Part shown: one piece after another, positions 61-15,351 of the stretch | Layout: each line of letters opens with the position of its first letter | How positions within the stretch are numbered: position 1 is the stretch's first letter | Assembly: GCA_949494735.1 (NCBI GenBank) | Contig: CATABD010000014.1 | Location: 1-43,404, forward strand | Direction of reading: 5' to 3' | DNA from: an uncultured Oscillospiraceae bacterium | GTDB lineage: Bacteria; Bacillota; Clostridia; Oscillospirales; Oscillospiraceae | Length of the DNA: 43,404 bases | The notes under the pieces: model-generated | Told to the model about the DNA's origin: nothing | Seen by the model: only the letters and a program-made list of their open reading frames with translations | Database searches by the model: none | Made by a program: the position numbers and the translations under genes

Positions 61-1119
61 TCAGCACTTGGGATGGGCCAGCGCCTCGCCTCGAAGCAGC
101 CGTTCCACGTCGGCCACGATGATGTCCAGGGAGATGGCGGCCAGATTGCTGCAATTCCCGGCCCGGTGGGGCGTCAGCGTCACATTGTCCAGCCTCAGGA
201 TGGGGTGCCCTGCGGGGATGGGCTCCACAGAGAACACGTCCAACCCGGCCCCGCCAATCTTTTTCGCGGCCAGGGCTTCTACCAGGGCGTCCTCGTCCAC
301 CAGCCCCGCGCGGGCGGTGTTGATGAAGAAAGCGTGGGGCTTCATCATCCCGATCAGCTCCCGGCTCACCAGTCCCTGGGTGTCCTTGGACAGGCGGGCG
401 TGGACGCTGACGTAATCGGCGGTGCGCATCAGCTCGTCCAACGGCACACTGCGGCAGCCGGTCCGTTCAAAGACCTCCGCCGGACAGAAGGGGTCGTAGG
501 CGATCATTTCACAGCCAAACGCCGCCAGCTTGGCCGCCACCCGCTGCCCGATGATGCCGTAACCCACCAGGCCCACCACACAGCCCCTCAGGCTTTTGAT
601 GTACGAGGCGTTGGGGCAGTCGTTCATCCACGCCCCGCCGTGGTCGGTGATGCTCATGCGGGCTATGTTCCGGGATTCAGCCAGGATCAGCCCCACCGTG
701 TAGTCGGACACCGGCTCCGCCAGCCGGCCGGGGGCCACCGCCACCTTCACCCCCGCTTTTGCCGCCGCCTCCAGGTTCACATTTTCCGCCCCGCTCCGGG
801 TTACGCCGATCATCTTCAGCTTCTTCGCGGCCTCTATGACCTTCGAGCCCACCGGGGCGAAGTTCACCAGGATGATGTCCGCATCCGCCGCTTCGCGCAG
901 CAGGTCCTCATTGACCGGGAAGGGCTCTGGCCCCATTTTTTCCACCTGGGAGGCATATTCCACGAACTGTCCCCGGTCCCAGCCCTTCTGCGCCTCCACG
1001 TATACCAGCTCAGCGCCGTATCCCTCCAGGCGCTTCAACACACGCTGGGCATCCTCCGCCATCACCTTCTCATAGGTCATGGAGGCGTCCACCAGCATCA
1101 CCACTTTATATTTTGCCAT
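61..1119 (-). CDS. D-2-hydroxyacid dehydrogenase (first copy)
   Basis: NAD-dependent D-isomer-specific 2-hydroxyacid dehydrogenase of 352 aa, expected to interconvert a 2-keto acid and a D-2-hydroxy acid in the cytoplasm. The Rossmann motif GYGIIG is at residues 186-191, with an acidic residue (Asp209) after strand 2 that favours NAD. The catalytic Arg270 (in NTARAGLVDE), Glu299 (in FSVEP) and His318 (in TPHRAG) are all present. The family also includes phosphoglycerate dehydrogenase, but no C-terminal ACT domain is seen. It is the last gene of the PTS operon, 19 bp after enzyme I, so a role in the same pathway is likely; the substrate is unknown. A Shine-Dalgarno AAAGGAG lies rather far (about 13 nt) from the ATG. 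A paralogue lies at 13158-14243. Confidence 0.9.
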   Translation of the reverse strand: MAKYKVVMLVDASMTYEKVMAEDAQRVLKRLEGYGAELVYVEAQKGWDRGQFVEYASQVEKMGPEPFPVNEDLLREAADADIILVNFAPVGSKVIEAAKKLKMIGVTRSGAENVNLEAAAKAGVKVAVAPGRLAEPVSDYTVGLILAESRNIARMSITDHGGAWMNDCPNASYIKSLRGCVVGLVGYGIIGQRVAAKLAAFGCEMIAYDPFCPAEVFERTGCRSVPLDELMRTADYVSVHARLSKDTQGLVSRELIGMMKPHAFFINTARAGLVDEDALVEALAAKKIGGAGLDVFSVEPIPAGHPILRLDNVTLTPHRAGNCSNLAAISLDIIVADVERLLRGEALAHPKC

Positions 1120-1138
1120 CGCTTTGTCATTGCTCCTT

Positions 1139-2866
1139 TCAAATACCTTCCCGCGGGCCGATGAGCCGCCGCACCCCGTCCGCCGTAGACGCCCTCAATG
1201 CGAGCCCAGCCAGGGCTTGGGCGTCGGAGAGATACATCTCCCGCAGCTGTTTTTTCACTCCCGGAATGGAGGACGCAGTCATGCTGAACTCGTCCAGCCC
1301 CATTCCCGCCAGCAAAACGGCGGCCCGGACATCACCCGCCAGCTCGCCGCACATGCCCGTCCATTTCCCCGCGGCGTGGGAGGCGTCAATCACCCGCTTG
1401 ATAGAGCGCAGCACCGCCGGATGCAGCGGATCATAGCGGGCGGCGATGCGGGGGTTCCCGCGGTCTACCGCCAAGGTGTACTGGGTCAGATCGTTGGTGC
1501 CGATGGAAAAGAAATCCACATGCTCCGCCAGCACGTCCGCCATCATGACGGCGGCGGGCGTCTCCACCATGATTCCCACCTCGATGTCCGCCTGGAACGG
1601 GACGTCCCGCGCCCGCAGCTCCTCTTTACACTCCTCCAGAAGCCCCTTGGCGGCCAGCAGCTCATCCAGCGAGATAATCATGGGAAACATGATCCTCAGT
1701 TTCCCGAACACGCCCGCCCGCAGGATGGCCCGCAGCTGGGTCTTGAACAGGTCCGTCCGGTCCAGGCACATTCGGATGGCCCGCCAGCCCAGAAAGGGGT
1801 TCTCCTCCGGCTCGAAAGCATAGTAGGGCAGCGCTTTATCCCCGCCGATGTCCAGTGTGCGGACAATCACCGGGCGCTGCGCCCCCATTTCGGCGGCCAC
1901 CTCCCGGTAGGCGGCAAACTGCGCCTCCTCATCGGGGAAGTGGGTATCGTTCATGTACAAAAGTTCTGTGCGGTACAGTCCAACGCCCTGTGCGCCGTAT
2001 TTTACCGCCCCGGCCAGGTCGCCGGGGCCGCCGATGTTGGCGCACAGCTCGAAGCACTTCCCGTCGCGGGCCTGGGCGGGCAGCTCCCGCAGAGCGCCCA
2101 GGGCCTCCCGCCCGCGCAGGAACTCCTGCCGCTTCTGCGCATAGCGCTCCAGCTCCTCGGGCTCCGGGTTCACCACCACACAGCCGTCCAGCGCGTCCAG
2201 GATCACCGTCTCGCCGCCGGCGAGATGCTCCAGCACGCCGGCCGTCCCCACCACCGCCGGGATCTCCAGACTGCGGGAGATGATGGCGGTGTGGGAGGTC
2301 CTCCCCCCCAGCTCCGTGACGAAGCCCAAGGTGTGGGCAAAGTCCATGCTCACCGTTTCGGAGGGCGTCAGATCCCGCGCGGCGACAATGCAATCCTCCG
2401 GCAGGCAGCTCAGCTCCACCCGGGCCACCCCCGCGGCGTTCTCCAGGATACGGCGGCCCACGTCCCGAATGTCCGCCGCCCGCTCCTGGAGGTAGGGGTC
2501 GCGCAGCTGGGCGAACAGGGCCGCGATCTCCTCAATTCCCTCCGCGATGGCGTAGGGCGCGTTGTGCCGCTCCTGGGCGATCTTATCCTGTATGGTCTCC
2601 TCCAGCACCGGGTCCTCCAGCACGGAGAGGTGGGCGGAAAAAATCTCCGCCTGCTCCTCCCCCAGCCGCCGTGCGGCCTCTCCGGCCAGCGCCTCGATCT
2701 GCTCCCGCGCCGCCGCCAGGGCGCCCGCAAAACGCCCCAGCTCCGCCTCCACCTGGTCCGGCCCGATCTCCGCCGGGTCGGGCGCGATGTCCACCGGACG
2801 CAGGACCACCGCCCGGGCGATGGCGATGCCGTCGGAAACCGGGACGCCCTTATATTCAAATCTCAT
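1139..2866 (-). CDS. ptsI: PTS enzyme I (phosphoenolpyruvate-protein phosphotransferase)
   Basis: Cytoplasmic enzyme I takes phosphate from PEP and passes it to HPr. At 575 aa it has the normal length. The phosphohistidine is in GGRTSHTAI (about residue 192), and the PEP-binding barrel shows YRTELLYM, FFSIGTNDLTQYTLAVDRG and the active-site Cys in GMCGELAGD. I chose the ATG at 2866 because MRFEYKGV matches the usual N-terminus and has GAGAG 7 nt upstream. An in-frame ATG at 2884 would overlap the end of ptsH by 8 bp. It sits between ptsH and a 2-hydroxyacid dehydrogenase inside a sugar-specific operon, which is an unusual place for a general PTS gene. Confidence 0.97.
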   Translation of the reverse strand: MRFEYKGVPVSDGIAIARAVVLRPVDIAPDPAEIGPDQVEAELGRFAGALAAAREQIEALAGEAARRLGEEQAEIFSAHLSVLEDPVLEETIQDKIAQERHNAPYAIAEGIEEIAALFAQLRDPYLQERAADIRDVGRRILENAAGVARVELSCLPEDCIVAARDLTPSETVSMDFAHTLGFVTELGGRTSHTAIISRSLEIPAVVGTAGVLEHLAGGETVILDALDGCVVVNPEPEELERYAQKRQEFLRGREALGALRELPAQARDGKCFELCANIGGPGDLAGAVKYGAQGVGLYRTELLYMNDTHFPDEEAQFAAYREVAAEMGAQRPVIVRTLDIGGDKALPYYAFEPEENPFLGWRAIRMCLDRTDLFKTQLRAILRAGVFGKLRIMFPMIISLDELLAAKGLLEECKEELRARDVPFQADIEVGIMVETPAAVMMADVLAEHVDFFSIGTNDLTQYTLAVDRGNPRIAARYDPLHPAVLRSIKRVIDASHAAGKWTGMCGELAGDVRAAVLLAGMGLDEFSMTASSIPGVKKQLREMYLSDAQALAGLALRASTADGVRRLIGPREGI

Positions 2867-2876
2867 GGCGGCTCTC

Positions 2877-3137
2877 TCATTCATCCAAGCTGGAGATGAA
2901 CCGGACCACAGCGGCCAGGGCCTCCTCCTCGTCCTCTCCCTCCGCCCGGACAGCGATCCGGCTGCCTGCGTTCACGTCAAGGGTGAGGATACGGATGATG
3001 CTTTTGGCGTCGCCGGTCTTGTCCCCGTGGATCAGGGTAATCCTGCTTTTGAACTTTTTTGCCAGCCCGGCCAGGCCGGAGGCGGGGCGGGCGTGGAGCC
3101 CGGTCTTGTTGACCACCTGAACGTTTGCTTCGATCAA
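2877..3137 (-). CDS. ptsH: Phosphocarrier protein HPr
   Basis: HPr, 86 aa, relays phosphate from enzyme I to EIIA. The catalytic site GLHARPAS is at residues 13-20, with His15 and Arg17. Ser46 is present in DAKSI, so the Firmicute HPr kinase/phosphorylase control point for catabolite repression is conserved. The residues after Ser46 (IIRILTL) differ from the common IMGVMSL, which could affect CcpA or kinase contact; that is inference. The start is a TTG at 3137, 8 nt after AGGAGG. It is followed by ptsI, and preceded 40 bp upstream by a GntR regulator of the same operon. Confidence 0.96.
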   Translation of the reverse strand: MIEANVQVVNKTGLHARPASGLAGLAKKFKSRITLIHGDKTGDAKSIIRILTLDVNAGSRIAVRAEGEDEEEALAAVVRFISSLDE

Positions 3138-3177
3138 AGTAATTACCTCCTGTCAGGCCGGGCCCCTGGGCCCGGCC

Positions 3178-3897
3178 TTATCCGTGCCAAGTGAACGTGT
3201 ACTCCATCACCTCAGTCACCTGGAGCGACTCGGTGTATTTGACCACCCGGCCCCCGGTGTCCACGATGCTGCTGCTCACAGCCACCAGCGGCCTTTTCGT
3301 GGAGAGATTGAGCAGCTCCATTTGCTGCTTCGAGGGTATCTGGGGCGTCAGCGTCTGATTGGAATAGGCGATCTCCACGTGAAACTGCTCCTGCATGATG
3401 CGTACCAGGGACTGGTGCTCCAGATCCCACGGGTTGATGCCGAAAAAAATATCATCAGGCAGATAGATGTGTTCCAAGGATACCGGCGTGCTGTCCGCAA
3501 ACCGAACCCGGTAGATCATCACAAGGGGGCTTTCCGGCTCGATGCCGAACAGGTGCGCCAGGGCGGAGGTGGCGGGCTGCGTGGCCATGGTGATGATGCG
3601 GGAGGACGGCACCTTGCCCGACGCCTGGATGGCGCTGTACATGCTCCGGCTGTTGGTCATCTGCCGGTTTTTGATCTTGGCCACGAAATGCCCCTTGTTG
3701 GGCTCCCGTTTGATGATGCCCTGGGCACACAGCTCCTCCAGGGCGTTGCGCACAGTTACCCGGCTGACCTGATAGGACTGGCACAGGGCGCTCTCCGCGG
3801 GCAGCTTGGTGCCAGGCTTGAGGATGCCGTCCTGGACCTGCTGCTTGATGTCGGTGACGATCTGATAGTACAGGGGCATTGTGGAATTCAGTTTCAT
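3178..3897 (-). CDS. GntR/UTRA-family transcriptional regulator (first copy)
   Basis: A 239-aa regulator of the HutC/UTRA branch of GntR. The N-terminal winged helix (about residues 5-70) includes YQIVTDIKQQVQDGILKPG, KLPAESALCQSYQVSRVTVR and a wing ending KREPNKGHFV. The rest is a UTRA effector domain (about 95-237), a fold that commonly binds sugar phosphates. The ATG at 3897 is chosen because GGGTGGTG precedes it and the encoded MKLNSTMPLYYQ is the usual N-terminus; the frame stays open 87 bp further upstream. It has its own promoter but sits inside the PTS operon, so it probably controls this locus in response to an intermediate. A paralogue is at 12380-13108. Confidence 0.93.
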   Translation of the reverse strand: MKLNSTMPLYYQIVTDIKQQVQDGILKPGTKLPAESALCQSYQVSRVTVRNALEELCAQGIIKREPNKGHFVAKIKNRQMTNSRSMYSAIQASGKVPSSRIITMATQPATSALAHLFGIEPESPLVMIYRVRFADSTPVSLEHIYLPDDIFFGINPWDLEHQSLVRIMQEQFHVEIAYSNQTLTPQIPSKQQMELLNLSTKRPLVAVSSSIVDTGGRVVKYTESLQVTEVMEYTFTWHG

Positions 3898-3940
3898 GAT
3901 GGACACCACCCAAATCAAAATGTTGGATACTTTTGTCTCT

Positions 3941-3970
3941 ATTTTATCACCGGTGCGACATCCCTGGCAA
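3941..3970 (-). promoter_or_regulatory. Promoter for the GntR-ptsHI part of the operon
   Basis: Reading leftward, TTGCCA (3970-3965), an 18-bp spacer and TAAAAT (3946-3941) lie about 45 bp before the GntR start. This internal promoter would allow the regulator, HPr, enzyme I and the dehydrogenase to be expressed apart from the upstream PTS genes. Confidence 0.6.
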
Positions 3971-4008
3971 CCAATGCCTGACAAAAATATTCAACTTTTT
4001 GTGGGCCC

Positions 4009-4770
4009 TTACAGCATGGTGCCGCCGCTGCAATCAATGGCCGCGCCGATGATCTGACCGGCGCAGTCGGAGCACAGAAACGCCACCACGCGGCCGATCT
4101 CGATGGGCGTGGTAAACGCCCCTGTGGGCAGCAGCTGCCGCATCCGCTCGGTGCGGGGCTCACCGTCGGGGTAGGTGCGTTCTGTCTGGACATAGCCGGG
4201 CACCACGCCGTTCACCCGGATCTTATAGGGCGCCATCTCGTTGGCAACGCCCTTCGTCAGCCCGTAGGCTCCTGATTTTGCGCAGATGTAGGATGTATTG
4301 TCCTTGCTGTTGGTGGTGAAGGCGGACTTGGACAGCACGTTGACGATGGCCCCCGCCCTGTCCCGCTCCCTGCACAGCCGGACGAAGGCCCGGCTCATGA
4401 AGAACTGGCTGTTAAGGGTGATCTCCTGCACCGAGCGCCAGTCCTCTGTGGTCAGCTCATGGAACGGCTTGCGGATGGCGCCGCGCCCCGCGTTGTTGAC
4501 CAGGATATCCACCTGTCCGAACCGCTCCAGGGCGGTGCGAAAAATTTCCTCCACCGCCTCCTCGCGGCTCACGTCCCCGTCCACCGGGACCAGGGCGGCG
4601 CCGGTCCGCCTGCCGAGCTCCTCCAAAAAGGCGCGGGTCTCGGCGTTATGGCTCAGGTCGGCGACCACCACATTGCAGCCCTCCTCGGCCAGCGCGGTGA
4701 CGCAGCCCTTTCCGATCCCCCGGCCCCCGCCGGTCACAATGGCCGTTTTCCCCTTCAGTTGAAGATCCAT
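4009..4770 (-). CDS. SDR-family oxidoreductase (first copy)
   Basis: Classical short-chain dehydrogenase of 253 aa, expected to oxidise or reduce a hydroxyl/keto group on a sugar or sugar phosphate with NAD(P). The nucleotide motif TGGGRGIG is at residues 13-20, NNAG at 92-95, and the catalytic Tyr161 and Lys165 are in YICAK. The segment before the Tyr reads NVLSKSAF rather than the common ISS; the other SDR of this locus (8603-9376) shares LSK, so the two belong to one subfamily. The ATG at 4770 is preceded by AAAGGAGGG. It lies 23 bp after the IIA gene. The exact substrate is unknown. Confidence 0.93.
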   Translation of the reverse strand: MDLQLKGKTAIVTGGGRGIGKGCVTALAEEGCNVVVADLSHNAETRAFLEELGRRTGAALVPVDGDVSREEAVEEIFRTALERFGQVDILVNNAGRGAIRKPFHELTTEDWRSVQEITLNSQFFMSRAFVRLCRERDRAGAIVNVLSKSAFTTNSKDNTSYICAKSGAYGLTKGVANEMAPYKIRVNGVVPGYVQTERTYPDGEPRTERMRQLLPTGAFTTPIEIGRVVAFLCSDCAGQIIGAAIDCSGGTML

Positions 4771-4793
4771 ATCCTGTTTTCCCTCCTTTGCGG

Positions 4794-5210
4794 TCACATA
4801 TGATAGAGTTTTTTCATCAGTGCGGTCAGGTCGGTGTCCATTCCGGCGCAGTTCTCCGCCACTCGGGCGGCCAGCTCGTCCCCGGCGCACTCCTCCCGGT
4901 CGGAGAGGACCTCAATGAGCATCGGAACGCTGACCCCCGCCACCGCCGACAGCCGCCGGGTCTTGGCGAGCTTGGCCATGCACTTGAAAGGGGTTCCGCC
5001 CATAATGTCCACGCACACAAACACATTGCCGTCATATTTCTCCACGAGGGCCCTCAGCGCCGCCTCATAGGCATCCGGGTCCATCCCCTCCTCCAACGGC
5101 AGCGCCTCCAGCCGCTGGGCGTCGCCAAAGATCATTTTCACTGAATCAATGAGGGCCTGGCAGAAAAAGCCGTGGGATATCACCAGGACCGCCGGGATAT
5201 TCTGCTCCAT
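4794..5210 (-). CDS. PTS mannose-family component IIA
   Basis: A 138-aa EIIA of the mannose/fructose/sorbose superfamily. The phosphorylated histidine is His13 in VISHG near the N-terminus, and DIMGGTPF in the middle is the characteristic loop of EIIA-Man. It accepts phosphate from HPr and passes it to IIB (7811-8302). The ATG at 5210 follows AAGGAGG with normal spacing. It is a free-standing domain, not fused to IIB. It sits 14 bp after the aldolase gene and is cotranscribed with the other PTS parts. Confidence 0.95.
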   Translation of the reverse strand: MEQNIPAVLVISHGFFCQALIDSVKMIFGDAQRLEALPLEEGMDPDAYEAALRALVEKYDGNVFVCVDIMGGTPFKCMAKLAKTRRLSAVAGVSVPMLIEVLSDREECAGDELAARVAENCAGMDTDLTALMKKLYHM

Positions 5211-5224
5211 TGAAAACCGCCTCC

Positions 5225-6055
5225 TTACGCCTTCCCGCATTGATCCACCAGCTTCATGTAGTGGGTCAGCTTGGCCTTATATCCCTCGCTGAGCAGGCGG
5301 TAGCCCAGGTGGGCCCGCTTCAGCTCACCGTGATGGGCCAGCAGGTTGTCAATCCCGGCCTGGAACAGATCCGTGCCGATATTGACCTTTGTGATCCCCT
5401 CCCGGGTGGCGCGAGCCAGGTTTTCGTCGCCAGAGCCGGAGCCGCCGTGAAGGACCAGCGGCACCTCCACCTCCTCATAGATGGCGCGGAGCAGGGCGAA
5501 GTCCAGATGGGGCGTGCCCACGTATTTGCCGTGGGCCGTGCCGATGGCCACGGCCAGCGCGTCCACGCCGGTGCGCTCCACGTACTCCCTGGCCTGCCGG
5601 GGATCTGTGAGGCCGGTGTCCCGGTCGGCGGCGTAACTCTCCCCGCTCCCCACATGGCCCAGCTCCGCCTCCACGCTCACCCCCACCGCATGGGCGATCT
5701 TCACCAGCTGCGCCACCTCGGCCACATTCTCCTCATAGGGCAGGCTGGATCGGTCCACCATGATAGACGAGAACCCGCAGCGTATGGCGGTGATTGCCTG
5801 CTCGAATGTGCCGCCGTGGTCCAGATTGAGGGCCACCGGCACCGGCGCCCTCCCGGCCATCTCCGCCGCCGCCCTGGCCAGCAGGGGCACGTCCTCCGCC
5901 GCATTGAAGATCAGATCCAGGATCATAGGAGCGCGGTTCTCCACCGCCGCCTCAATGGCCGCGCGGGCGGTGTCCTCGTTGCAGATATTGGGCGCAATCA
6001 CGCCGTACCTGCCCTCCCGGGACTTTTTCAAAATATCTGTCATGCTCACCAGCAT
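5225..6055 (-). CDS. Class II fructose/tagatose-bisphosphate-type aldolase (first copy)
   Basis: A 276-aa zinc-dependent aldolase of the GatY/KbaY/FbaA class, expected to cleave a ketose phosphate into dihydroxyacetone phosphate and an aldehyde. The catalytic Asp79 and metal ligand His80 are in NLDHGG; further ligands are His175 (GTAHGKY) and His203 (VLHGGSGSG). The phosphate-binding region reads TKVNIGTDLF. The ATG at 6055 has AAAGGAA 9 nt upstream; an in-frame GTG at 6064 is too close to that site. It lies between IICD and IIA, so it should act on a product of the imported sugar phosphate. The paralogue at 11476-12333 shares about the same architecture. Confidence 0.93.
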   Translation of the reverse strand: MLVSMTDILKKSREGRYGVIAPNICNEDTARAAIEAAVENRAPMILDLIFNAAEDVPLLARAAAEMAGRAPVPVALNLDHGGTFEQAITAIRCGFSSIMVDRSSLPYEENVAEVAQLVKIAHAVGVSVEAELGHVGSGESYAADRDTGLTDPRQAREYVERTGVDALAVAIGTAHGKYVGTPHLDFALLRAIYEEVEVPLVLHGGSGSGDENLARATREGITKVNIGTDLFQAGIDNLLAHHGELKRAHLGYRLLSEGYKAKLTHYMKLVDQCGKA

Positions 6056-6139
6056 GGGCTGCACTTCCTTTCCACTTGAATGGAGCGCCGCCGCAGGGCT
6101 GTCACGCCGCGCGGCGGCGCTTCGGCCGGCGCGTCCTTT

Positions 6140-7747: not shown

Positions 7748-7810
7748 GTGCTTTTCCTCCCTTTATTCTGTTCTTTTGTTACATACATGGAGGTGCGGCG
7801 GCGTTCTCGC

Positions 7811-8302
7811 TCAGCCGCGCAGCTTGTGGACCACGGCATCCAGCGTGACCAGCCGGTCTTCCGGCGTGGGATGGAAGTAGACGTTGACGCCTGCGTCCTT
7901 CAGGCCTATGAGCGCGTCCAGCTCCGAGTCGCTCAGATGCACGGTGTTGTTGGCCTGCTTGCGCCCCGGAGCCTTGGGCACCTGTCCGATGTTGATGGAG
8001 CCGTAAGCAATCCCCGAATCATAGGCGCGCTTGGCTGAGTCCACGTTTTGAAACAGCAGGATGGTGTTGGCCGAACCATATCCGTTCTCGTTCCATTTCT
8101 GGAGCGCCTGCGCTTCATCGTAGACCACGACTTTGACCCCCTGCGGCGCCGCCATATAGAGCAGCTCCGTCAGGAAATCATCCGCCGCGGTCTTGTTGTC
8201 CACCACGACGATCTGCTGCGCCGCCAGCACCTTGGTCCAGCGGGTGGCTACCTGCCCGTGCACAAGTCTGGCATCCACTCTGGTCATGACGATATTGCCC
8301 AT
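7811..8302 (-). CDS. PTS mannose-family component IIB
   Basis: A 163-aa EIIB of the mannose/fructose/sorbose type, the cytoplasmic subunit that phosphorylates the incoming sugar. The active His15 lies in DARLVHGQVATRW. The ATG at 8302 is chosen because AAAGGAGGGG precedes it and the N-terminus MGNIVMTRVDARLVHG is typical; the open frame extends 150 bp further but lacks a good start. It is the first gene of the leftward operon, 63 bp ahead of IICD and about 130 bp after a good promoter with a palindromic operator. Confidence 0.95.
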   Translation of the reverse strand: MGNIVMTRVDARLVHGQVATRWTKVLAAQQIVVVDNKTAADDFLTELLYMAAPQGVKVVVYDEAQALQKWNENGYGSANTILLFQNVDSAKRAYDSGIAYGSINIGQVPKAPGRKQANNTVHLSDSELDALIGLKDAGVNVYFHPTPEDRLVTLDAVVHKLRG

Positions 8303-8435
8303 GCTTTCCCCTCCTTTCTTTGTAAGATGGCAGCGCTCCCGCCGGGAAGGGCCGCCGCCTTTATGGTCCGGCGTTGGGTTCGTTCTCCCATGTGCCGGCT
8401 GCCATGCGTAGTATGTGGCGCTTTTGCTAAAATTA

Positions 8436-8464
8436 ACAATACAGTATTGCATCTAATTTGTCAA
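8436..8464 (-). promoter_or_regulatory. Promoter of the PTS operon
   Basis: Reading leftward, TTGACA (8464-8459), a 17-bp spacer and TATTGT (8441-8436). The leader to the IIB start is about 130 nt. The 300 bp between the divergent operons (8303-8602) holds this promoter, the rightward promoter and two palindromes; nothing else was recognised. Confidence 0.75.
8437..8449. promoter_or_regulatory. Candidate operator (13-bp palindrome)
   Basis: CAATAC-A-GTATTG is a perfect palindrome around one central base and overlaps the -10 of the PTS promoter. A related 11-bp palindrome, CAATA-T-TATTG, is at 8520-8530 and overlaps the -10 of the rightward promoter. Binding by one of the two GntR/UTRA proteins is inferred. 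Confidence 0.5.
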
Positions 8465-8495
8465 TATATTTTTTCAAATTATAATAAAATTTGTC

Positions 8496-8523
8496 TTGAC
8501 ATTGATCTCAAAAAAGATACAAT
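8496..8523 (+). promoter_or_regulatory. Promoter of the SDR-HAD-ADH operon
   Basis: TTGACA (8496-8501), a 16-bp spacer and TACAAT (8518-8523), about 70 bp before the second SDR. The -10 is overlapped by the palindrome at 8520-8530. Confidence 0.75.
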
Positions 8524-8602
8524 ATTATTGGTACATGGAGCGTACAAATTGCGGCGACCACAAAAAATGCCAGCTTTCTATCAAAAAAAGGAGTGAATGC
8601 TT

Positions 8603-9376
8603 ATGGATCTAGGGCTTCGCGGAAAAACAGTGATCGTGACAGGGGGTTCGAAGGGAATCGGTGCCGGAATATGTGAAGTCTTTGCCAGAGAAGGCGCGAA
8701 TCTGGTGGTCAATTATCACAGCGACCCCCAAAGCGCAGAGGAACTCATCGCCCGGCTGACCGACAGCTATGGCTGCAGCGCAGCGGCGGTGAAGGGGGAC
8801 GTGGGGCGCGAGGCGGATGTGCAGCAGATCTTCGACACGGCGCTGGATGCCTTCGGCCAGGTGGACATCCTGGTGAACAACGCGGGACGGGGGTACACCA
8901 TCGACTTCCGGGAAACCACCCTGGAGCAGTGGAACCAGGCCCTGAACGACAATCTCACCGGACAGTTCCTCATGTCCCGGGAATTTGCCCGGCGGGTCAT
9001 CCCCACCGGGCGCAGGGGCTGGATCGTCAACATCCTCTCCAAAGCGTCCATGACCTCCACCACAAAGGGCCGGGTCTGCTACGTCGCCAACAAGGCAGGC
9101 GAGGTGGGGCTGACCCACTCCATGGCGGTGGACCTGACGGAGTATGGGATACACGTCAACGGCGTAATGCCCGGCTTCGTCCTGGCCAACACGCTGCTGG
9201 CCCAGCGGGAGCATAACCCGGAGGAATTCGCCCGCCGGGTGGAACGGGTCCCCATCAAACGAGTGGGGGAACCGTGGGAGATCGGCACCATGGTCGCTTT
9301 CCTGGCCAGCGAACAGTGCCAGCTCGCGGTGGGGACCGTCGTTGATATGACCGGCGGCCTGCTGCTGGGGTTCTGA
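8603..9376 (+). CDS. SDR-family oxidoreductase (second copy)
   Basis: Short-chain dehydrogenase of 257 aa. TGGSKGIG is at residues 13-20, NNAG at 92-95, and the catalytic Tyr160/Lys164 are in YVANK. It shares with the SDR at 4009-4770 the start MDL-L-GKT-IVTGG, the segment FGQVDILVNNAGRG and the LSK sequence before the active site, so the two are paralogues with probably related substrates. The ATG at 8603 is 9 nt after AAGGAG; an ATG at 8597 is only 3 nt from it. It is the first gene of the rightward operon, one base before the HAD phosphatase. Confidence 0.93.
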   Translation: MDLGLRGKTVIVTGGSKGIGAGICEVFAREGANLVVNYHSDPQSAEELIARLTDSYGCSAAAVKGDVGREADVQQIFDTALDAFGQVDILVNNAGRGYTIDFRETTLEQWNQALNDNLTGQFLMSREFARRVIPTGRRGWIVNILSKASMTSTTKGRVCYVANKAGEVGLTHSMAVDLTEYGIHVNGVMPGFVLANTLLAQREHNPEEFARRVERVPIKRVGEPWEIGTMVAFLASEQCQLAVGTVVDMTGGLLLGF

Positions 9377-9377
9377 C

Positions 9378-10256
9378 ATGGGGCCCTTCACCCTGATCTG
9401 CTCCGATCTGGACGGCACCCTGCTGGACAATTCCAGCCGGATCTCCCTGTACAGCGCGGAGATGATCGCCAGGGCGCGGGCGGAGGGCGCCATATTCTGC
9501 CTGACTTCCGGCCGCCCGCCGGCCATGATGGCGGCCTATCAGGCCCGCCTGGGGCTGGACTCGCCCCTCATCGCCAACAACGGCGCCATTGTCTGGCTGC
9601 CCCAGGCCGGGGTCTGCCTGCACCGCCGCCCCATCCCGCCGGCTCCCGCCCTGGATTTTTTGTCCTTCTGCCAGAGATCCGGCCTGGATTGGGCCGTCTT
9701 CACCCAGGAGAGCATCTATACTCCGGGCAGTCCCGCCCGGCTCCGGCGCTACGGCGAATACAATGCCCTTGCCAAGGCCCAGGGCGTCCAGCCTATCCGG
9801 GTACACACCGCCACGGTGGAGACGGCGGTCCAGATCCTCCTGACGCAGTGCGGCCTGCGCATCTCCGTGGTGTTCCGGGATGGCCGGGAAGAGCTGCTCC
9901 TCCAGGAGTATTTCTCCCAGCCCCGCGGCCTGACTCACGTGCATTCCACGCCGGAGTCCTATGACGTGCTGGCTCCCGGCGTCAACAAGTGGGACGGCAT
10001 CCTGGCCGTTAGCCGGTACTACGGCATTCCGGAGGAGCGCATCTGCGTGTTCGGAAACGATATAAACGATATGGAGATGGTGGCCCGGGCCAGGACCGCC
10101 TTTGCCGTCTCAAACGCGGAGCGGCCCCTGCTCGATCTGGCCCCCATCGTCATCGAAAGCAATCAGGACGAGGGCGTGGCCCACGCCATCCGGCGGTATA
10201 TCCTGGGCAATATCGTCCCGCCTCCCAAAAACAGACAGAAAGGGGAACGACCATGA
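9378..10256 (+). CDS. Cof-type HAD-superfamily phosphatase
   Basis: A 292-aa haloacid-dehalogenase-fold hydrolase of the Cof/subclass IIB type, which typically dephosphorylates sugar phosphates. Motif I is DLDGTLLD (residues 10-17), motif II is in LTSGRPPAM, the Lys motif is in GVNKWDG and motif III/IV is FGNDINDMEM; the cap domain lies between motifs II and III. It starts one base after the SDR stop and overlaps the next gene by 4 bp (ATGA), so the three are translationally coupled. In this context it may release the final free product or remove a dead-end phosphate; that is inference. Confidence 0.92.
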   Translation: MGPFTLICSDLDGTLLDNSSRISLYSAEMIARARAEGAIFCLTSGRPPAMMAAYQARLGLDSPLIANNGAIVWLPQAGVCLHRRPIPPAPALDFLSFCQRSGLDWAVFTQESIYTPGSPARLRRYGEYNALAKAQGVQPIRVHTATVETAVQILLTQCGLRISVVFRDGREELLLQEYFSQPRGLTHVHSTPESYDVLAPGVNKWDGILAVSRYYGIPEERICVFGNDINDMEMVARARTAFAVSNAERPLLDLAPIVIESNQDEGVAHAIRRYILGNIVPPPKNRQKGERP

Positions 10257-11425
10257 ACAATTTCAGCTTTTGCAGTCCCACCAGGTTCATATTCGGCCGG
10301 GGCGAGGAGGCCCGGGTCGGGGAATATGCCGCATCCTTCGGCGCGAAAAAAGTCCTCGTGCTCCACTACGGCACCGGTCAGGACTTTGAGAACCAGCTGA
10401 TGGACCGCGTGTTTGCCTCGCTGCGCAGCGCCGGCCTCAGCTGGGTGGACTTCACCGGCATCAAGCCGAACCCCACTGTGGAACGGGCCGAGGAGGGCGC
10501 CGCCCTGGTCCGGGCGCAGGGCATCGACTTCCTGCTGCCCGTGGGCGGCGGCAGCGTCATCGACACCGCCAAATACATCGCCGTGGCCGCCCTGTACGGC
10601 GGAAGCGTCTGGGATGACTTCTTCCTGAAAAAAGCCCCGGTCGGGGCCGCGCTGCCCGTAGGCGCCATCAACACCTTGCCCGGCACCGGCAGCGAAGGCT
10701 CCATGAGCGCGGTCATCACCAACGGCGTGCTCAAGCGCTCCCTGAACGACGACAAGATCCGCCCGGTTTTCGCCGTAATGAATCCGGAGCTTTCCTTTAC
10801 CCTGCCCCCCTTCCAGACCGCCAGCGGCGCGGTGGATATCATGGCCCACGTACATGAACGGTACTTCACCCGGGGCGGGGACAATTACCTCACCGACAAC
10901 CTGGGCGAGTCGGTATTCCGCACCGTCATCAAGTACCTCCCCATCGCCCTGCGGGAGCCGGACAATTACAACGCCCGGGCCCATCTCTTGTGGGCCAGCG
11001 TACTGGCCCACAACGACAGCTGCGGGGTGGGCCGGGTGGTGGACGGCGCCGTCCACGGCATCCAGTCGGAGATCGGCGGCATGTATGACTCCGCCCACGG
11101 CGCAGGCGTGGCGTGCGTCACCCCCGGCTGGATGAAATATGTCTACAAGGAGGATCCCCGCCGCTTCATCCGCTACTTCACCCAGGTCTGGGGGATGGAA
11201 AACGATCCCTACGACCCGGACGGCATGATTTTGGCCGGGATCGAGCGGCAGAAGGATTTTTACCGCTCGGTGGGCATCCCCGTTCACTACGCCCAGCTGG
11301 GCGTAAAAAAGGAGGACATCCCCACCCTGGCCTCCACCGTCCGCCGCGGTCCCGACGGGCTGGCCGGCAACTTCAAAAAGCTGACCACTGAGGATATTAT
11401 CAACATCTACGCACTGTTTGAATAA
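10253..11425 (+). CDS. Iron-containing alcohol dehydrogenase (BDH-like)
   Basis: A 390-aa group III metal-dependent alcohol dehydrogenase resembling butanol dehydrogenases, reducing an aldehyde with NAD(P)H. The coenzyme site shows PVGGGSVIDTAK (GGGS motif). Metal ligands are visible as Asp and His in GAVDIMAHVHE and two His in HGIQSEIGGMYDSAHG. AAAGGGGAA precedes the ATG, which overlaps the HAD stop. A likely role is reducing the aldehyde made by the neighbouring aldolase, which would regenerate NAD(P)+ under fermentation; this is inferred from position. Confidence 0.94.
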   Translation: MNNFSFCSPTRFIFGRGEEARVGEYAASFGAKKVLVLHYGTGQDFENQLMDRVFASLRSAGLSWVDFTGIKPNPTVERAEEGAALVRAQGIDFLLPVGGGSVIDTAKYIAVAALYGGSVWDDFFLKKAPVGAALPVGAINTLPGTGSEGSMSAVITNGVLKRSLNDDKIRPVFAVMNPELSFTLPPFQTASGAVDIMAHVHERYFTRGGDNYLTDNLGESVFRTVIKYLPIALREPDNYNARAHLLWASVLAHNDSCGVGRVVDGAVHGIQSEIGGMYDSAHGAGVACVTPGWMKYVYKEDPRRFIRYFTQVWGMENDPYDPDGMILAGIERQKDFYRSVGIPVHYAQLGVKKEDIPTLASTVRRGPDGLAGNFKKLTTEDIINIYALFE

Positions 11426-11429
11426 ATAT

Positions 11430-11458
11430 TTGCATTTCAACCCACGATCCGCTATAAT
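11430..11458 (+). promoter_or_regulatory. Possible internal promoter before the second aldolase
   Basis: TTGCAT (11430-11435), 17-bp spacer, TATAAT (11453-11458). The start point would fall within or next to the ribosome site AAGGAGG (11462-11468), leaving almost no leader, so activity is uncertain. Confidence 0.4.
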
Positions 11459-11475
11459 GATAAGGAGGAAATCCC

Positions 11476-12333
11476 ATGCCGCTGGTTACACTGAAAGAAA
11501 TTCTCGCCCCCGCCAAGGAACACAACTATGCCGTCGCCGCCTTCGACACCATGGACTTCACACTCACTGAGGGTATTATCCAGGCCGCCGAGCAGACCGG
11601 CAAGCCCGTCATCCTCATGCTGCCCGGCTTCATTTTTGACCGCCCCGACGCCCAGTCCATGCTGGACTTCAACCTGGACCGCATCGCCAAGTCCCCAGTG
11701 CCTATCTGCTACCACCTGGACCACGGTAAGGCCGACGAGTGCGTCAAGGCCATTCACGCGGGATGCTCCTCGGTGATGTACGACGGCTCCAGCCTCCCTA
11801 TGGAGGAAAATATCGCCGTCACCAAGGAGATCGTGAAAGTGGCCCATACTTGCGGGGTCAGCGTGGAGGCCGAGATCGGACACGTGGCCGCCCCGGAGGG
11901 CAGTGTGGAGGGCAGCGTGGCCGACGCCTCCAAGTTTACCCGCCCCGAGGACGCGGCCCGCTTCGTGGAGCAGACCGGCGTTGACGCCCTTGCCATCGCC
12001 TTCGGCACCGTTCACGGCGTGTACAAGGGAACGCCCCATCTGGACCTGGAGCGGCTGGCGGAGATCAAGCGCCTGGTGGACGTGCCCCTGGTCATGCACG
12101 GCGGCAGCGGCCTGCCTGAGCGTGATTTCCGCAACGCGGTGAAATACGGCATCAACAAGATCAATTTCTTCACCGGCATGTCCTTGGCCACCATCGCGGC
12201 CATGCGTAAGCTCATTGAGGAGACCGATGGCCGTGTGCGGTACATCAAGCTCTATGACACCGCGCTGCAAACCGTCATTGAGTGCGCCAAGGAGCAAATG
12301 GAGATTTTCGGCACCCAGTCGATCTATTCCTGA
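11476..12333 (+). CDS. Class II aldolase (second copy)
   Basis: A 285-aa zinc aldolase of the tagatose/fructose-bisphosphate type. Asp82 and His83 (HLDHGK), His180 (GTVHGVY) and His208 (MHGGSG) form the expected catalytic and metal set, at the spacing known for tagatose-bisphosphate aldolases. It shares CGVSVEAEIGHV, TGVDALA and GTPHLDLERL-type segments with the aldolase at 5225-6055. It has its own strong AAGGAGG site. It lies 50 bp after the alcohol dehydrogenase and 46 bp before a GntR regulator. Two aldolases in one locus suggest two substrates or two stereoisomers. Confidence 0.93.
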   Translation: MPLVTLKEILAPAKEHNYAVAAFDTMDFTLTEGIIQAAEQTGKPVILMLPGFIFDRPDAQSMLDFNLDRIAKSPVPICYHLDHGKADECVKAIHAGCSSVMYDGSSLPMEENIAVTKEIVKVAHTCGVSVEAEIGHVAAPEGSVEGSVADASKFTRPEDAARFVEQTGVDALAIAFGTVHGVYKGTPHLDLERLAEIKRLVDVPLVMHGGSGLPERDFRNAVKYGINKINFFTGMSLATIAAMRKLIEETDGRVRYIKLYDTALQTVIECAKEQMEIFGTQSIYS

Positions 12334-12379
12334 GTCAAAACGGCCGGCCTTCCGGCCCGCATGTGGGAGGGGACGCTCT

Positions 12380-13108
12380 TTGAAACAGACGGCGTCGTCG
12401 GGTTTGAGATACACGGAGGCTGTCTCTGCCCTGGAAAAAATGATTGAGTCCGGCACATTCCCCTATGGGGAGCGGCTGCCCAACGAGAAGTGGCTGTGCG
12501 AAAAGCTCTGCGTCAGCCGGCCCACACTGCGCAAGGCGGTGGATGAGATCATTGCCGCCGGTCTGGCCGAGCGCCGCCCAAACAGGGGAGTTTATGTGAC
12601 CCACTCCAAGTTCGGCGGCAATTTCGACCGGCCCTACAGCGTCTATCAGGAGCTGCTTCGGGCCGGCATCCATCCCTCCTCCAAGATTCTGTCCTTCTCC
12701 CGGACCGAAGCGGACAGCGCCCTCAGCGAGGTCATGCGCTGCCCGGTGGGCGAGCCCCTGCTGGAATTTTTCCGGGTGCGGTACGCCGACGGCCGGCCGT
12801 TCAACATCAACCACATCCGCCTGATCGAACGCTTTTTCCCCCAATTCAACCCCTGGCTCCTGACCGAACGCTCCCTCCATGAGATCATGAAAACCGACTA
12901 CAAGCTGGACATCGCCCAATCCGTGCAGTATGTCAGCGCGGCCCTGGCCACCAAGGAGCAGGCCAAGCATCTGGAAATCCCCATCCGCACCCCGCTGTTG
13001 ACCACCTCCAGCATCGTGACTGCGGAGGACGGCTGTGTCATCTCCCACCAGTTTTCCTGGATCAACACCAATGTGGTTCCCTACTCGTATAAATGCGTCT
13101 GGCGGTAA
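12380..13108 (+). CDS. GntR/UTRA-family transcriptional regulator (second copy)
   Basis: A 242-aa GntR regulator. The winged helix is at about residues 8-75 (LPNEKWLCEKLCVSRPTLRK, then AERRPNRGVYVTHS) and a UTRA domain follows (EPLLEFFRVRYADGRPF, then IAQSVQYVSAALA). The start is not an ATG: a TTG at 12380, 7 nt after GGGAGGGG, best fits the protein's start. It is the last gene of the rightward operon and ends at a strong terminator. It is probably a local regulator paired with the GntR at 3178-3897. Confidence 0.88.
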   Translation: MKQTASSGLRYTEAVSALEKMIESGTFPYGERLPNEKWLCEKLCVSRPTLRKAVDEIIAAGLAERRPNRGVYVTHSKFGGNFDRPYSVYQELLRAGIHPSSKILSFSRTEADSALSEVMRCPVGEPLLEFFRVRYADGRPFNINHIRLIERFFPQFNPWLLTERSLHEIMKTDYKLDIAQSVQYVSAALATKEQAKHLEIPIRTPLLTTSSIVTAEDGCVISHQFSWINTNVVPYSYKCVWR

Positions 13109-13111
13109 CAG

Positions 13112-13150
13112 AAAAGAGTGCGCTGCGGATCGTCCGCGGCGCACTCTTTT
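13112..13150. terminator. Bidirectional terminator between convergent genes
   Basis: An almost perfect 18-bp hairpin with a 3-nt loop, flanked by A's on the left and T's on the right (AAAAGAGTGCGC / GCGCACTCTTTT). It can end transcription of the GntR gene on the plus strand and of the dehydrogenase gene on the minus strand. Confidence 0.9.
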
Positions 13151-13157
13151 TTCCTGT

Positions 13158-14243
13158 TCACTGGCCGGCGCCGGTCTGCCCCTTCCCCCGCCGGCAGCCA
13201 TACAGCGTCCCGCCCCGCCCCTCAAACGCGGGGCAGTCCCAAACTTGAGGGTTACACACCCCCCGCTCCATGGCCTCCCCCTCCAGAAAGCGGGAGAGCA
13301 GCCCACAGAGCATTTCCGACTGGTACACGACCCGCTCCACGCTCAGCCCCGCCAGATGGGAGGTCATCAAGAGCCGGTCCTCCGGGATGGAATACCAAGG
13401 GGAGGCGGGCCCTACCGGCTCCTCGTCAAACACATCCAACGCCGCCCGGAGCCGCCCGGAGCGCAGCTGTTCCAGCAGGGCGCCGCTGTCCGCCAGCGCC
13501 GCCCGGGCGGCGTTGATGAAGCAGGCGCCGTCTTTCATCCTGGCAAACTCCCCGGCGCCTATCATCCCCCTGGTCTCCTGCGTCACCCTGGCCGCCATCA
13601 CCAGATAGTCGGCGCTTGACAGCACCTCCTCCAAGGCGCACAGCTTCACGCCCAGTTCCCGGGCCTTTTCCGGCGGCGCGTATGGGTCATAGGCCATCAT
13701 CTCCATCTCGAATCCGGCCGCCCGCTTCGCCACCCCCCGCCCGTTGCGCCCCAGGCCGACAATGCCCAGCGTTTTCCCCGCCAGTTCGGTGGACGCCTCG
13801 CAGATCCGGCGCAGGCAAAGGTCGTTCTCCTTTGTCCAGCCCTCCGTGCGGATCACCTGCGCAGAGCGCAGCGCAGGCTTGGCCATGAGCAGCATGGCCA
13901 AGAGCGTGAATTCCGGAACGGAGCGCTCACACCGCCCGCCGCTGAACAGTACCGGTATCCCCATCTGCGTGCAGGCAGCCACGTCGATATTCTCTTCCGG
14001 CCCGTCCCGGACGCTCAGGATGAGCTTCAGCTCAGGACAGGCCTCCAGCACCTGCCGGGTCACCTTTTCATAGCCGCAGAAGAAAATGTCGTACCCCTGC
14101 AGGCTCGCCCCAATCCGCTTCTCGTCCATCCTGCTGGCAGGGTTCAGGTCCAAGCTGAACCCGACCCGTTGGAAGCGCACCAGCTCCCCGGCCTTTTCCG
14201 CCCATTTTGGGTCGAATTCCGCTGTGCAAAGCGCTTTGAGCAT
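13158..14243 (-). CDS. D-2-hydroxyacid dehydrogenase (second copy)
   Basis: A 361-aa NAD-dependent 2-hydroxyacid dehydrogenase. The cofactor motif GLGRNG is at residues 163-168, with catalytic Arg247 (NAARAAL), Glu275 (DVFDEEP) and His296 (TSHLAG). The ATG at 14243 follows AGGAAGGGGG; the frame is open further upstream but that part overlaps the promoter. It belongs to the same family as the gene at 61-1119 but is clearly diverged, with a longer C-terminus. It is divergent from the aldo/keto reductase and has its own near-consensus promoter. Confidence 0.92.
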   Translation of the reverse strand: MLKALCTAEFDPKWAEKAGELVRFQRVGFSLDLNPASRMDEKRIGASLQGYDIFFCGYEKVTRQVLEACPELKLILSVRDGPEENIDVAACTQMGIPVLFSGGRCERSVPEFTLLAMLLMAKPALRSAQVIRTEGWTKENDLCLRRICEASTELAGKTLGIVGLGRNGRGVAKRAAGFEMEMMAYDPYAPPEKARELGVKLCALEEVLSSADYLVMAARVTQETRGMIGAGEFARMKDGACFINAARAALADSGALLEQLRSGRLRAALDVFDEEPVGPASPWYSIPEDRLLMTSHLAGLSVERVVYQSEMLCGLLSRFLEGEAMERGVCNPQVWDCPAFEGRGGTLYGCRRGKGQTGAGQ

Positions 14244-14264
14244 ACAAATTCCCCCTTCCTGTCC

Positions 14265-14293
14265 ATTATAAATTATTGTATTAATTTTGTCAA
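14265..14293 (-). promoter_or_regulatory. Promoter of the second 2-hydroxyacid dehydrogenase
   Basis: Leftward TTGACA (14293-14288), 17-bp spacer, TATAAT (14270-14265): consensus at both hexamers. The spacer contains AATACAATAAT on the minus strand (14282-14272), close to the motif in the two promoters at 8436-8523. Confidence 0.8.
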
Positions 14294-14312
14294 TTAAATA
14301 TTTAAATTTATA

Positions 14313-14341
14313 TTGCAATCTTCGGAAATATTCGATATAAT
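14313..14341 (+). promoter_or_regulatory. Promoter of the aldo/keto reductase
   Basis: TTGCAA (14313-14318), 17-bp spacer, TATAAT (14336-14341). A CAATAC half-site follows at 14344-14349. It is divergent from the promoter at 14265-14293. Confidence 0.75.
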
Positions 14342-14373
14342 AGCAATACATAAATATGAAAGGGGATCTGTTC

Positions 14374-15351
14374 ATGCGCTACAAACAATTTGGCAGTACC
14401 GGCCTCTCCCTCTCTGAAATTTCGGTGGGAACCTGGGCCCTGGGAGGAAAGGACATGGGGCCTGTGGACGAAAAGGACGCCATAGAGGCCATCCACGCCA
14501 TGATCGACAACGGGGTCAATTTCATCGACACCGCCCCCACCTACGGAAGGGGCGCTTCGGAGGAGATCGTGGGCAAGGCGCTGAAAGGCCGCCGGGATCA
14601 GGTGGCCCTTCTGACCAAATGCGGGATACGCTGGGACGAGGGCCCAAAGGATTTCACCAAGGGAGCCATACGGGACAGTAGCCGCGCCAGCATCCTCAGG
14701 CAGATTGATGACTCCCTCCACCGCCTCCAGACCGACCACGTGGACTTTTATCTCATCCACTGGCCCGACGTGAACACTCCCCTGGAAGAGACCGCAGATG
14801 TACTCAAGGAGCTGAAAAAGGCGGGAAAGATCCGCTATACCGGCGTATCCAACTTTGAACCGGCGCAGCTGGACGCGCTGTACCGGCTGGGCGTCCTGGA
14901 TGTGGTACAGTATCCCTATTCCATGGTCAACCGAAGCAAAGAAGCCCTCCTCAAGCAGTACCACGACAAAGGGGTGGCCGCCATGGGTTACGGCTCCCTG
15001 GGCGCGGGCATCCTCACCGGCGCCATCCGCCAGCTGCCCCATTTCGACTCCCACGACGCCCGGCTGGGCTTTTACGACTTCTTTGTAGAGCCCAGATTCT
15101 CCCAGGTCATGAAACTCCTGGCCGCGCTGGACATCATCGCCCAGCGGCGGAATGTCCCCGTGGCCCAGGTCGCCATCAATTGGACCACCCAGTGCGGCGT
15201 TGTGGACACTTCCCTCACGGGTGTCAGAAACGCGGCGGAGGCCGTGGAAAACACCGCTGCCATGTCCTGGTCCCTTGACGCGGAGGAAATCGCGCAGATC
15301 AATGCTGCCATCCACACACATCTGGATTCTGCGGACAAGGATGGCCGCTGA
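14374..15351 (+). CDS. Aldo/keto reductase
   Basis: A 325-aa TIM-barrel NADPH oxidoreductase. The catalytic tetrad is visible: Asp and Tyr in FIDTAPTYG, Lys in LLTKCG and His in LIHWPD. The family reduces aldehydes and ketones of sugars. The ATG at 14374 has AAAGGGG upstream; an earlier in-frame ATG at 14356 lies before that site. It is divergent from the second 2-hydroxyacid dehydrogenase and probably belongs to the same sugar locus, of which it is the last gene. Confidence 0.92.
   Translation: MRYKQFGSTGLSLSEISVGTWALGGKDMGPVDEKDAIEAIHAMIDNGVNFIDTAPTYGRGASEEIVGKALKGRRDQVALLTKCGIRWDEGPKDFTKGAIRDSSRASILRQIDDSLHRLQTDHVDFYLIHWPDVNTPLEETADVLKELKKAGKIRYTGVSNFEPAQLDALYRLGVLDVVQYPYSMVNRSKEALLKQYHDKGVAAMGYGSLGAGILTGAIRQLPHFDSHDARLGFYDFFVEPRFSQVMKLLAALDIIAQRRNVPVAQVAINWTTQCGVVDTSLTGVRNAAEAVENTAAMSWSLDAEEIAQINAAIHTHLDSADKDGR

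Follow-up and report, generated by a model that had tools for sequence, protein, structure and literature searches.

A candidate catabolic island with a mannose-family phosphotransferase system, two class II aldolases and a 2-hydroxyacid dehydrogenase in an uncultured Oscillospiraceae bacterium

The window analysed here comprises bases 1–43,404 of contig C14 (CATABD010000014.1) from an uncultured Oscillospiraceae bacterium (assembly GCA_949494735.1; genome label G000, 3.18 Mb, 214 contigs, 84.9% complete). At its left end lies a conserved unit of 14 genes, running from approximately bp 61 to 13,150, in which nine genes on the minus strand (61–8302) diverge from five genes on the plus strand (8603–13,108), and which may be a catabolic island for sugars taken up by a phosphotransferase system (PTS). 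The left edge of the unit is the end of the contig and hence open. Open reading frames were called with a simple rule based on length and on the G + C content of third codon positions (GC3). All genes named in a preliminary description of this DNA were recovered where it had placed them, or close by. However, enzyme I (EI) and HPr of the PTS, which both score above the NCBIfam cut-offs, were absent from its list. The features of the unit and its direct neighbours are as follows.

61–1119, minus strand: HDH1, D-2-hydroxyacid dehydrogenase (HDH) family; NCBIfam phosphoglycerate dehydrogenase (PGDH)/glyoxylate reductase, under cut-offs; R270, E299, H318; clade.
1139–2884, minus strand: PTS EI, local copy; TIGR01417 664.7 bits (cut-off 341.7).
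2877–3137, minus strand: HPr with its His-containing GLHARP motif (by eye); TIGR01003 89.9 bits (cut-off 47.9).
3178–3897, minus strand: GntR1, GntR/UTRA regulator; Pfam UTRA and GntR above cut-off.
4009–4770, minus strand: SDR1, short-chain dehydrogenase (SDR), sister to SDR2; family match, tree.
4794–5210, minus strand: mannose-family PTS IIA; TIGR00824, E 1.3e-19, under cut-off.
5225–6055, minus strand: ALD1, class II aldolase of the fructose-bisphosphate aldolase (FBA) type, without DPR motif; family match, alignment, tree.
6140–7747, minus strand: fused PTS IIC-IID; IIC families match residues 7–244, IID families 266–535.
7811–8302, minus strand: mannose-family PTS IIB; TIGR00854, E 6.3e-30, under cut-off.
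8303–8602, no strand: shared divergent control region; sigma70-like sites on the plus strand at 8496–8523 (and 8458–8485) and on the minus strand at 8464–8436.
8603–9376, plus strand: SDR2; family match, tree.
9378–10,256, plus strand: Cof-type hydrolase of the haloacid dehalogenase (HAD) family; TIGR00099 143.7 bits (cut-off 137), Pfam Hydrolase_3.
10,253–11,425, plus strand: FeADH, iron alcohol dehydrogenase of the BdhA/YqhD type; family match, nearest solved structures.
11,476–12,333, plus strand: ALD2, second FBA-type aldolase without DPR, not the sister of ALD1; family match, alignment, tree.
12,380–13,108, plus strand: GntR2, GntR/UTRA regulator (start codon uncertain); Pfam UTRA and GntR above cut-off.
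13,112–13,150, no strand: hairpin, likely terminator and right edge of the unit; 18-nt arms, 94% complementary.
13,158–14,243, minus strand: HDH2, neighbour judged outside the unit; tree, occurrence elsewhere.
14,374–15,351, plus strand: aldo/keto reductase, nearest YdjG (under cut-off), neighbour judged outside the unit; family match, occurrence elsewhere.

Starting from its promoter-distal end, the minus-strand operon reads HDH1-EI-HPr-GntR1-SDR1-IIA-ALD1-IICD-IIB, and the plus-strand operon reads SDR2-HAD-FeADH-ALD2-GntR2. The earlier picture of a mannose-family PTS flanked by two divergent operons agrees with this layout, as IIA, IIB and the fused IIC-IID were all seen and the operons diverge from 8303–8602. 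This 300-bp gap between IIB and SDR2 contains three promoter-like sites, on both strands, against a mean of 0.9 after shuffling, and the promoter boxes are mostly kept across four aligned loci (the window, L022, L023 and the one in genome G091). The two GntR/UTRA proteins would regulate this shared region.

The plus-strand operon is closed by the hairpin at 13,112–13,150, which a separate simple terminator scan did not report. Beyond it, HDH2 and the aldo/keto reductase adjoin the unit in the window, L022 and L023, and both had been included in the doubled module of the preliminary description. We left them out because of the hairpin, because a promoter match (12 of 12) lies between them and because the pair occurs elsewhere in G091 (71% and 82% identical), on another contig, C15, away from the island. 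None of the other reference genes was found within the 15 kb examined around the pair on C15. Membership of the unit was therefore rejected for both genes, and they were judged to form a separate unit.

All four mannose-family PTS components (IIA, IIB, IIC and IID) were matched, each under the curated NCBIfam cut-off of its best families. Because of these scores, they are classed from sequence as divergent members of the mannose family. The phosphorylatable His motifs of IIA and IIB are visible by eye in the translations, and the island PTS probably transports and phosphorylates a sugar. A 'private' phosphorelay, with the local EI as the sole EI of the cell, was ruled out by two further EI genes above the TIGR01417 cut-off elsewhere in this genome.

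The FeADH has BdhA/YqhD-type aldehyde reductases as its nearest solved structures; for the SDRs, the aldolases, HDH1 and FeADH, the structure searches returned only broad relatives. The nearest tree group of SDR1 and SDR2 consists of the SDRs of L123, L125 and L126 and that of a Klebsiella FGGY-SDR-HDH-PTS cluster (support 88/80). The HAD hydrolase is not essential to the scheme proposed below, since it is absent from L023 and its counterpart in genome G160 is only 29% identical.

In an alignment of 30 aldolases, the seven columns of the metal and catalytic site (D79, H80, E129, E131, H175, H203 and N225 in ALD1) were invariant. A DPR motif close to the C-terminus, through which bisphosphate aldolases make contact with the second phosphate, was present in 4 of the 30, namely GatY, KbaY and two other aldolases of this genome. 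The 26 aldolases without it include ALD1, ALD2, YdjI and the aldolases of the HDH clusters. As the motif is lost and the metal and catalytic sites are kept, the substrates of both aldolases of the island are probably monophosphates. ALD2 alone reaches a cut-off, that of the broad TIGR00167; the other aldolase and PTS scores stay under the curated cut-offs. In the aldolase tree, YdjI falls outside the ALD1 clade on a long branch (support in its surroundings 82/86). ALD1 relatives in genomes G820, G715 and G760 adjoin an HDH, galactitol-type PTS genes and a sigma54/PRD activator; in G820, IIC and IIA were named by family match and IIB only as Pfam PTS_IIB. In G775, the genes around a further ALD1 relative encode a mannose-type PTS with EI and HPr, a Zn-type dehydrogenase, an SDR and FeADH.

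On contig C27 of this genome (15,000–32,357, locus L019), the stretch 9613–12,179 was observed to hold an ALD1-clade aldolase (48%) followed directly downstream by genes for a protein of the AtuA family (PF07287) and for a small protein; by eye, genes of a peptide-type ABC transporter lie upstream.

HDH1 keeps the catalytic residues of its family: R270, E299 and H318 are conserved in 54, 53 and 54 of the 54 aligned rows, respectively. In D-2-hydroxyacid dehydrogenases, this Arg/Glu/His set handles the alpha-carboxylate. HDH1 scores higher with the PGDH and glyoxylate reductase models (196 and 165 bits) than with the D-lactate dehydrogenase models (at most 123 bits). Among 299 genomes of the phylum, relatives of HDH1 (E ≤ 1e-55) occur in 24 genomes, this one included, at 28 places, 26 of them outside. 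Stretches were taken for all 26 outside places, yielding 24 loci, and neighbours were scored within 5 kb of the HDH. The aldolase in this range is of the FBA type at 9 of the 24 loci, of the adducin type at 9 others and of the type of 2-keto-3-deoxy-6-phosphogluconate (KDPG) aldolase at 3; none was found at the remaining 3. HDH scores are highest at the nine FBA-type loci. Of the 24 loci, 21 have a kinase of the FGGY or PfkB type and 3 have PTS genes. In five of the nine FBA-type loci (L118, L120, L121, L122 and L124), a GntP-family gluconate permease, in each case above the TIGR00791 cut-off, is located between the aldolase and an FGGY kinase; L120 also has a 5-dehydro-4-deoxy-glucuronate isomerase. 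With equal flanks of about 1.5 kb, an FBA-type aldolase was found at 10 of 26 HDH1 relatives against 1 of 17 control genes, the other 2-hydroxyacid dehydrogenases of G000, G091 and G160, the single positive being HDH2 of the window. In the HDH tree, HDH1 belongs to a 19-row clade (100/98) together with the HDHs of these clusters and groups most closely with the genes of L119 and L126 (99/95).

Several loci with an HDH of this family were observed to combine it with other genes. In L119 and L126, two different dehydrogenases of the HDH clade flank or neighbour one aldolase, together with PTS genes, an arrangement that suggests two distinct hydroxyacid steps in a single pathway. L089, on contig C8 of this genome (18,000–37,900), contains at 7314–14,414 a TRAP-type permease (DctM), an NMT1-like binding protein, an HDH (42%), an FGGY kinase, an SDR and an adducin-type aldolase nearest to 3-oxo-tetronate-4-phosphate decarboxylase (under cut-off), and resembles a sugar-acid cluster. 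L088 (G160, contig C1, 2,857,000–2,876,900) contains at 2227–15,008 HPr, two EI genes, a galactitol-type IIC, an HDH (44%), a protein like fuculose-phosphate aldolase, a Zn-dehydrogenase and an iron alcohol dehydrogenase; its logic is similar, with an unrelated aldolase fold. In L044 (Klebsiella pneumoniae, CP125156.1, 5151–11,203), a DhnA-type aldolase, a GlpP-like antiterminator, an FGGY kinase, an SDR, an HDH (44%) and a PTS IIC are consecutive. In L139, L140 and L141, HDH relatives lie beside a PfkB-type kinase, a KDPG-type aldolase and matches to TRAP permeases, a third aldolase type with this dehydrogenase family.

The preliminary description had reported a doubled module, with SDR, class II aldolase, GntR/UTRA regulator and 2-hydroxyacid dehydrogenase each occurring twice. 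Although each of the four families is indeed present in two copies, only the SDRs form a sister pair: SDR1 and SDR2 are 43% identical, are mutually the nearest SDRs of this genome and are sisters in a 31-row tree (100/99). ALD1 is nearer to the third aldolase of this genome, on C27 (48%), than to ALD2 (44%), and the two fall into different clades. HDH1 and HDH2 are 31% identical and belong to different clades, and three other paralogues in the genome match HDH1 with better E-values than HDH2. For GntR1 and GntR2, a pairwise comparison, made without a tree, gave 32% identity. Duplication of the module was thus ruled out by the trees for the aldolases and the hydroxyacid dehydrogenases. Since neither of these pairs are sisters, duplication is, on the sequence relationships, confined to the SDR doubling, which is old.

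The fused IIC-IID had seven matches (E ≤ 1e-60) in 250 genomes of the family: this genome, G091 (90%), G160 (48%) and four others at 31–34%. A scan of genome contigs for the same protein added L022 (95%), L023 (96%), L024 (90%, on a contig equal in length to C17 of G091) and L025 (33%, Sporolactobacillus). The gene order of the window is kept for 16 of 16 genes in L022, for 15 in L023 (no HAD) and for 14 in G091 (no HDH2 and aldo/keto reductase). Of the 16 kinds of gene, G160 retains 10 in a different arrangement and is without EI, HPr, SDR1, ALD2, HDH2 and the aldo/keto reductase; identities are 83% for ALD1, 75% for FeADH, 74% and 71% for its two SDR2-type genes and 64% for HDH1, and a ribulose-phosphate-epimerase (Rpe)-like gene adjoins IICD. 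The two halves of the unit, which had been expected to occur together in related genomes, are found together in these four other family genomes (L022, L023, G091 and G160). Relatives of ALD1 are rare: counting this genome, they were found in 2 of 394 genomes of the order (E ≤ 1e-95), 4 of 391 of the class (1e-78) and 1 of 299 of the phylum (1e-76).

The L022, L023 and G091 loci have differing neighbours. L022 is flanked on both sides by transposase pieces (PF02371 and PF00872), and the G160 locus adjoins a relaxase and a serine recombinase; on these grounds, the unit fits a mobile metabolic island. A tblastn search of plasmids yielded 5 records for ALD1 and 140 for HDH1, all below 60% identity. 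The remainder of the window (15,436–43,301) contains, by eye, mostly housekeeping genes (TatD, MetG, signal peptidase, FtsH, TilS, DnaB, RplI, branched-chain aminotransferase, PyrG and others). These names, and some further labels such as that of the Zn-dehydrogenase in L030, L123 and L125, rest on homology to a single reference or on visual inspection. The reference proteins MDR2 and KetoseIsoRpiB were cut out of frame, so that the count of Zn-dehydrogenase neighbours depends on a single reference and may be too low.

The absence of a match to a described pathway, reported earlier, still stands: none of the 16 window proteins reached the equivalog cut-offs of the sorbose, mannose, N-acetylgalactosamine, galactitol or tagatose pathways, and no characterised pathway with this gene set was found in the open-licence literature. 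IolJ of the myo-inositol pathway is an FBA-family aldolase that splits a 5-keto-6-phospho acid into dihydroxyacetone phosphate (DHAP) and a three-carbon semialdehyde. IolJ receives its substrate from inositol enzymes and a kinase; no gene for any of these was recognised in the unit. The catabolic enzymes of Salmonella dgaABCDEF, for D-glucosaminate, differ from those of the island. This system has a mannose-family PTS, a precedent for PTS entry of a sugar acid, with a LevR-like regulator where the island has GntR/UTRA proteins (PMC4987338). E. coli ydjEFGHIJKL shares with the island an FBA-type aldolase without DPR (YdjI) and adjoining oxidoreductases, but has a kinase (YdjH) and non-PTS transporters where the island has a PTS. 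YdjI, named L-glycero-L-galacto-octuluronate-1-phosphate aldolase in RefSeq, has been either predicted or demonstrated to use a carboxylate-bearing ketose-1-phosphate; a review describes an enzyme of this kind joining DHAP and L-arabinuronate (PMC11194214). In the five RpiR-HDH-ALD-GntP-FGGY clusters (L118, L120, L121, L122 and L124), as in the island, an HDH1-clade dehydrogenase is combined with a neighbouring FBA-type aldolase and with a step of phosphorylation. However, they use a gluconate-type permease and FGGY kinase instead of a PTS, have no SDR within 5 kb in four of the five cases and are themselves uncharacterised. In the clusters of G820, G715, G760 and L119, PTS, HDH and aldolase stand together as in the island, the aldolase of the first three being of the ALD1 clade. 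Their PTS is of the galactitol type with a sigma54/PRD activator, and our scan found no adjoining SDR, FeADH or HAD, except for a weak HAD match in L119. Judged by its genes, the island resembles other pathways with a ketose-1-phosphate and a DHAP-forming aldolase, with the PTS replacing the kinase.

We propose that the unit is an island for the catabolism of a single PTS sugar or of a few that are closely related; to this reading, with the scheme given here, we assign a probability of roughly 0.45. Phosphate from phosphoenolpyruvate would pass via the local EI and HPr to IIA, IIB and IIC-IID, so that the substrate enters as a monophosphate. SDR2, and perhaps SDR1 too, would oxidise the hydroxyl adjacent to the phosphate-bearing carbon, giving a compound of the ketose-1-phosphate type. 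ALD1 would split this compound into DHAP, which goes to glycolysis, and an unphosphorylated aldehyde; FeADH and/or HDH1 would reduce the product of this second fragment and rebalance NADH. Taken generally (PTS monophosphate, SDR oxidation, aldol cleavage, fragment reduction), this order of events is rather probable. A PTS-fed route built on an SDR, a class II aldolase and reductases, as suggested before, is supported. The reaction steps, their order and the substrate are our proposal, built on gene content, intact residues, synteny, promoters and DPR loss, which can be read from the DNA.

As a substrate, a sugar acid (a hexonate or hexulosonate) is favoured over a polyol, because the chemistry of an HDH needs an alpha-keto acid and because GntP permeases are present in five HDH-aldolase clusters. 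In this more tentative version, a sugar acid 6-phosphate would be oxidised to 5-keto-hexonate-6-phosphate, which would be cleaved into DHAP and tartronate semialdehyde, the latter being reduced to glycerate.

A number of observations weigh against these proposals. The 17 control dehydrogenases mentioned above came from three genomes, whereas the test loci came from many. The sister genes of HDH1 (L119 and L126) sit with galactitol-type PTS genes and not with GntP. The GntP-linked aldolases form a clade apart from ALD1, so that the pointer to sugar acids is tied chiefly to HDH1. The closest tree paralogue of ALD1 in this genome, on C27, lies in an ABC-transporter/AtuA neighbourhood with no PTS within the stretch examined, and no HDH accompanies the ALD1 relative in G775. 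Loss of DPR is no proof of substrate, since it is also seen in unlinked aldolases of Enterococcus and Citrobacter, the latter adjoining a sugar isomerase and a kinase. The SDR families indicate no substrate. Moreover, the substrates of 2-hydroxyacid dehydrogenases are alpha-keto acids, and an HDH could use tartronate semialdehyde only after its isomerisation to hydroxypyruvate. Finally, the glycerate kinase family TIGR00045 was absent from all three genomes tested (in a control, it was found in 5 of 14), so that glycerate would have to leave the cell or be processed by a different enzyme family.

The best surviving alternative is a route for a neutral polyol or ketose, in which the PTS would import an alditol, an SDR would form a ketose-1-phosphate, ALD1 and ALD2 would release DHAP and glyceraldehyde or a shorter aldehyde, FeADH would yield glycerol or a diol and HDH1 would act as a general redox sink. 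The aldehyde-reductase type of FeADH agrees with such a route, as do the G775 locus, where PTS, Zn-type dehydrogenase, SDR and FeADH accompany the aldolase in the absence of an HDH, and the galactitol-type IIC alongside HDH and aldolase in G820 and three other loci. However, it leaves the GntP permeases in five of the nine HDH and FBA-aldolase loci, the intact Arg/Glu/His set of HDH1 and the higher score of HDH1 with PGDH and glyoxylate reductase than with D-lactate dehydrogenase to be accounted for, and we regard it as somewhat unlikely.

Alternatively, in line with the two stereoisomers considered in the preliminary description, SDR1/ALD1 and SDR2/ALD2 might be two branches for epimeric substrates, the Rpe-like enzyme of G160 standing in for ALD2 by converting the ALD2 substrate to the epimer that ALD1 accepts. 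That the SDRs are sister paralogues, that the aldolases are of distinct subfamilies and that G160 lacks ALD2 yet has the Rpe-like gene next to IICD are all consistent with this. However, G160 combines two SDRs, both of the SDR2 type with SDR1 gone, with a single aldolase, which argues against one-to-one pairing of SDR and aldolase and makes strict branches quite unlikely. A divergent form of a known bisphosphate route (tagatose, galactitol or N-acetylgalactosamine type) has in its favour that the best scores of the aldolases and of the PTS subunits are with these broad families. It is nevertheless very improbable: the scores lie under the curated cut-offs except for TIGR00167 with ALD2, the DPR motif is lost, and none of the unit's 14 genes was recognised as a ketose-phosphate kinase, a deacetylase, a deaminase or KbaZ/GatZ-like.

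The proposed sugar-acid scheme could extend to a pathway of the Bacillota that exists in a PTS form and in a form with permease and FGGY kinase. Both would convert a sugar acid via hex-5-ulosonate-6-phosphate into DHAP and tartronate semialdehyde; HDH1 and FeADH would reduce the acid fragment, which is excreted, and two aldolases (in G160, one plus the Rpe-like epimerase) would widen the range to two epimers. In this full form, the proposal is unlikely. If true, the sugar-acid reading would give a function to the recurrent, unnamed partnership of a 2-hydroxyacid dehydrogenase, a DHAP aldolase and a kinase or PTS, and would open up many annotations now named 'fructose-bisphosphate aldolase' and 'phosphoglycerate dehydrogenase'. 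It would also add a sugar-acid route that joins glycolysis via DHAP in a gut-type anaerobe family.

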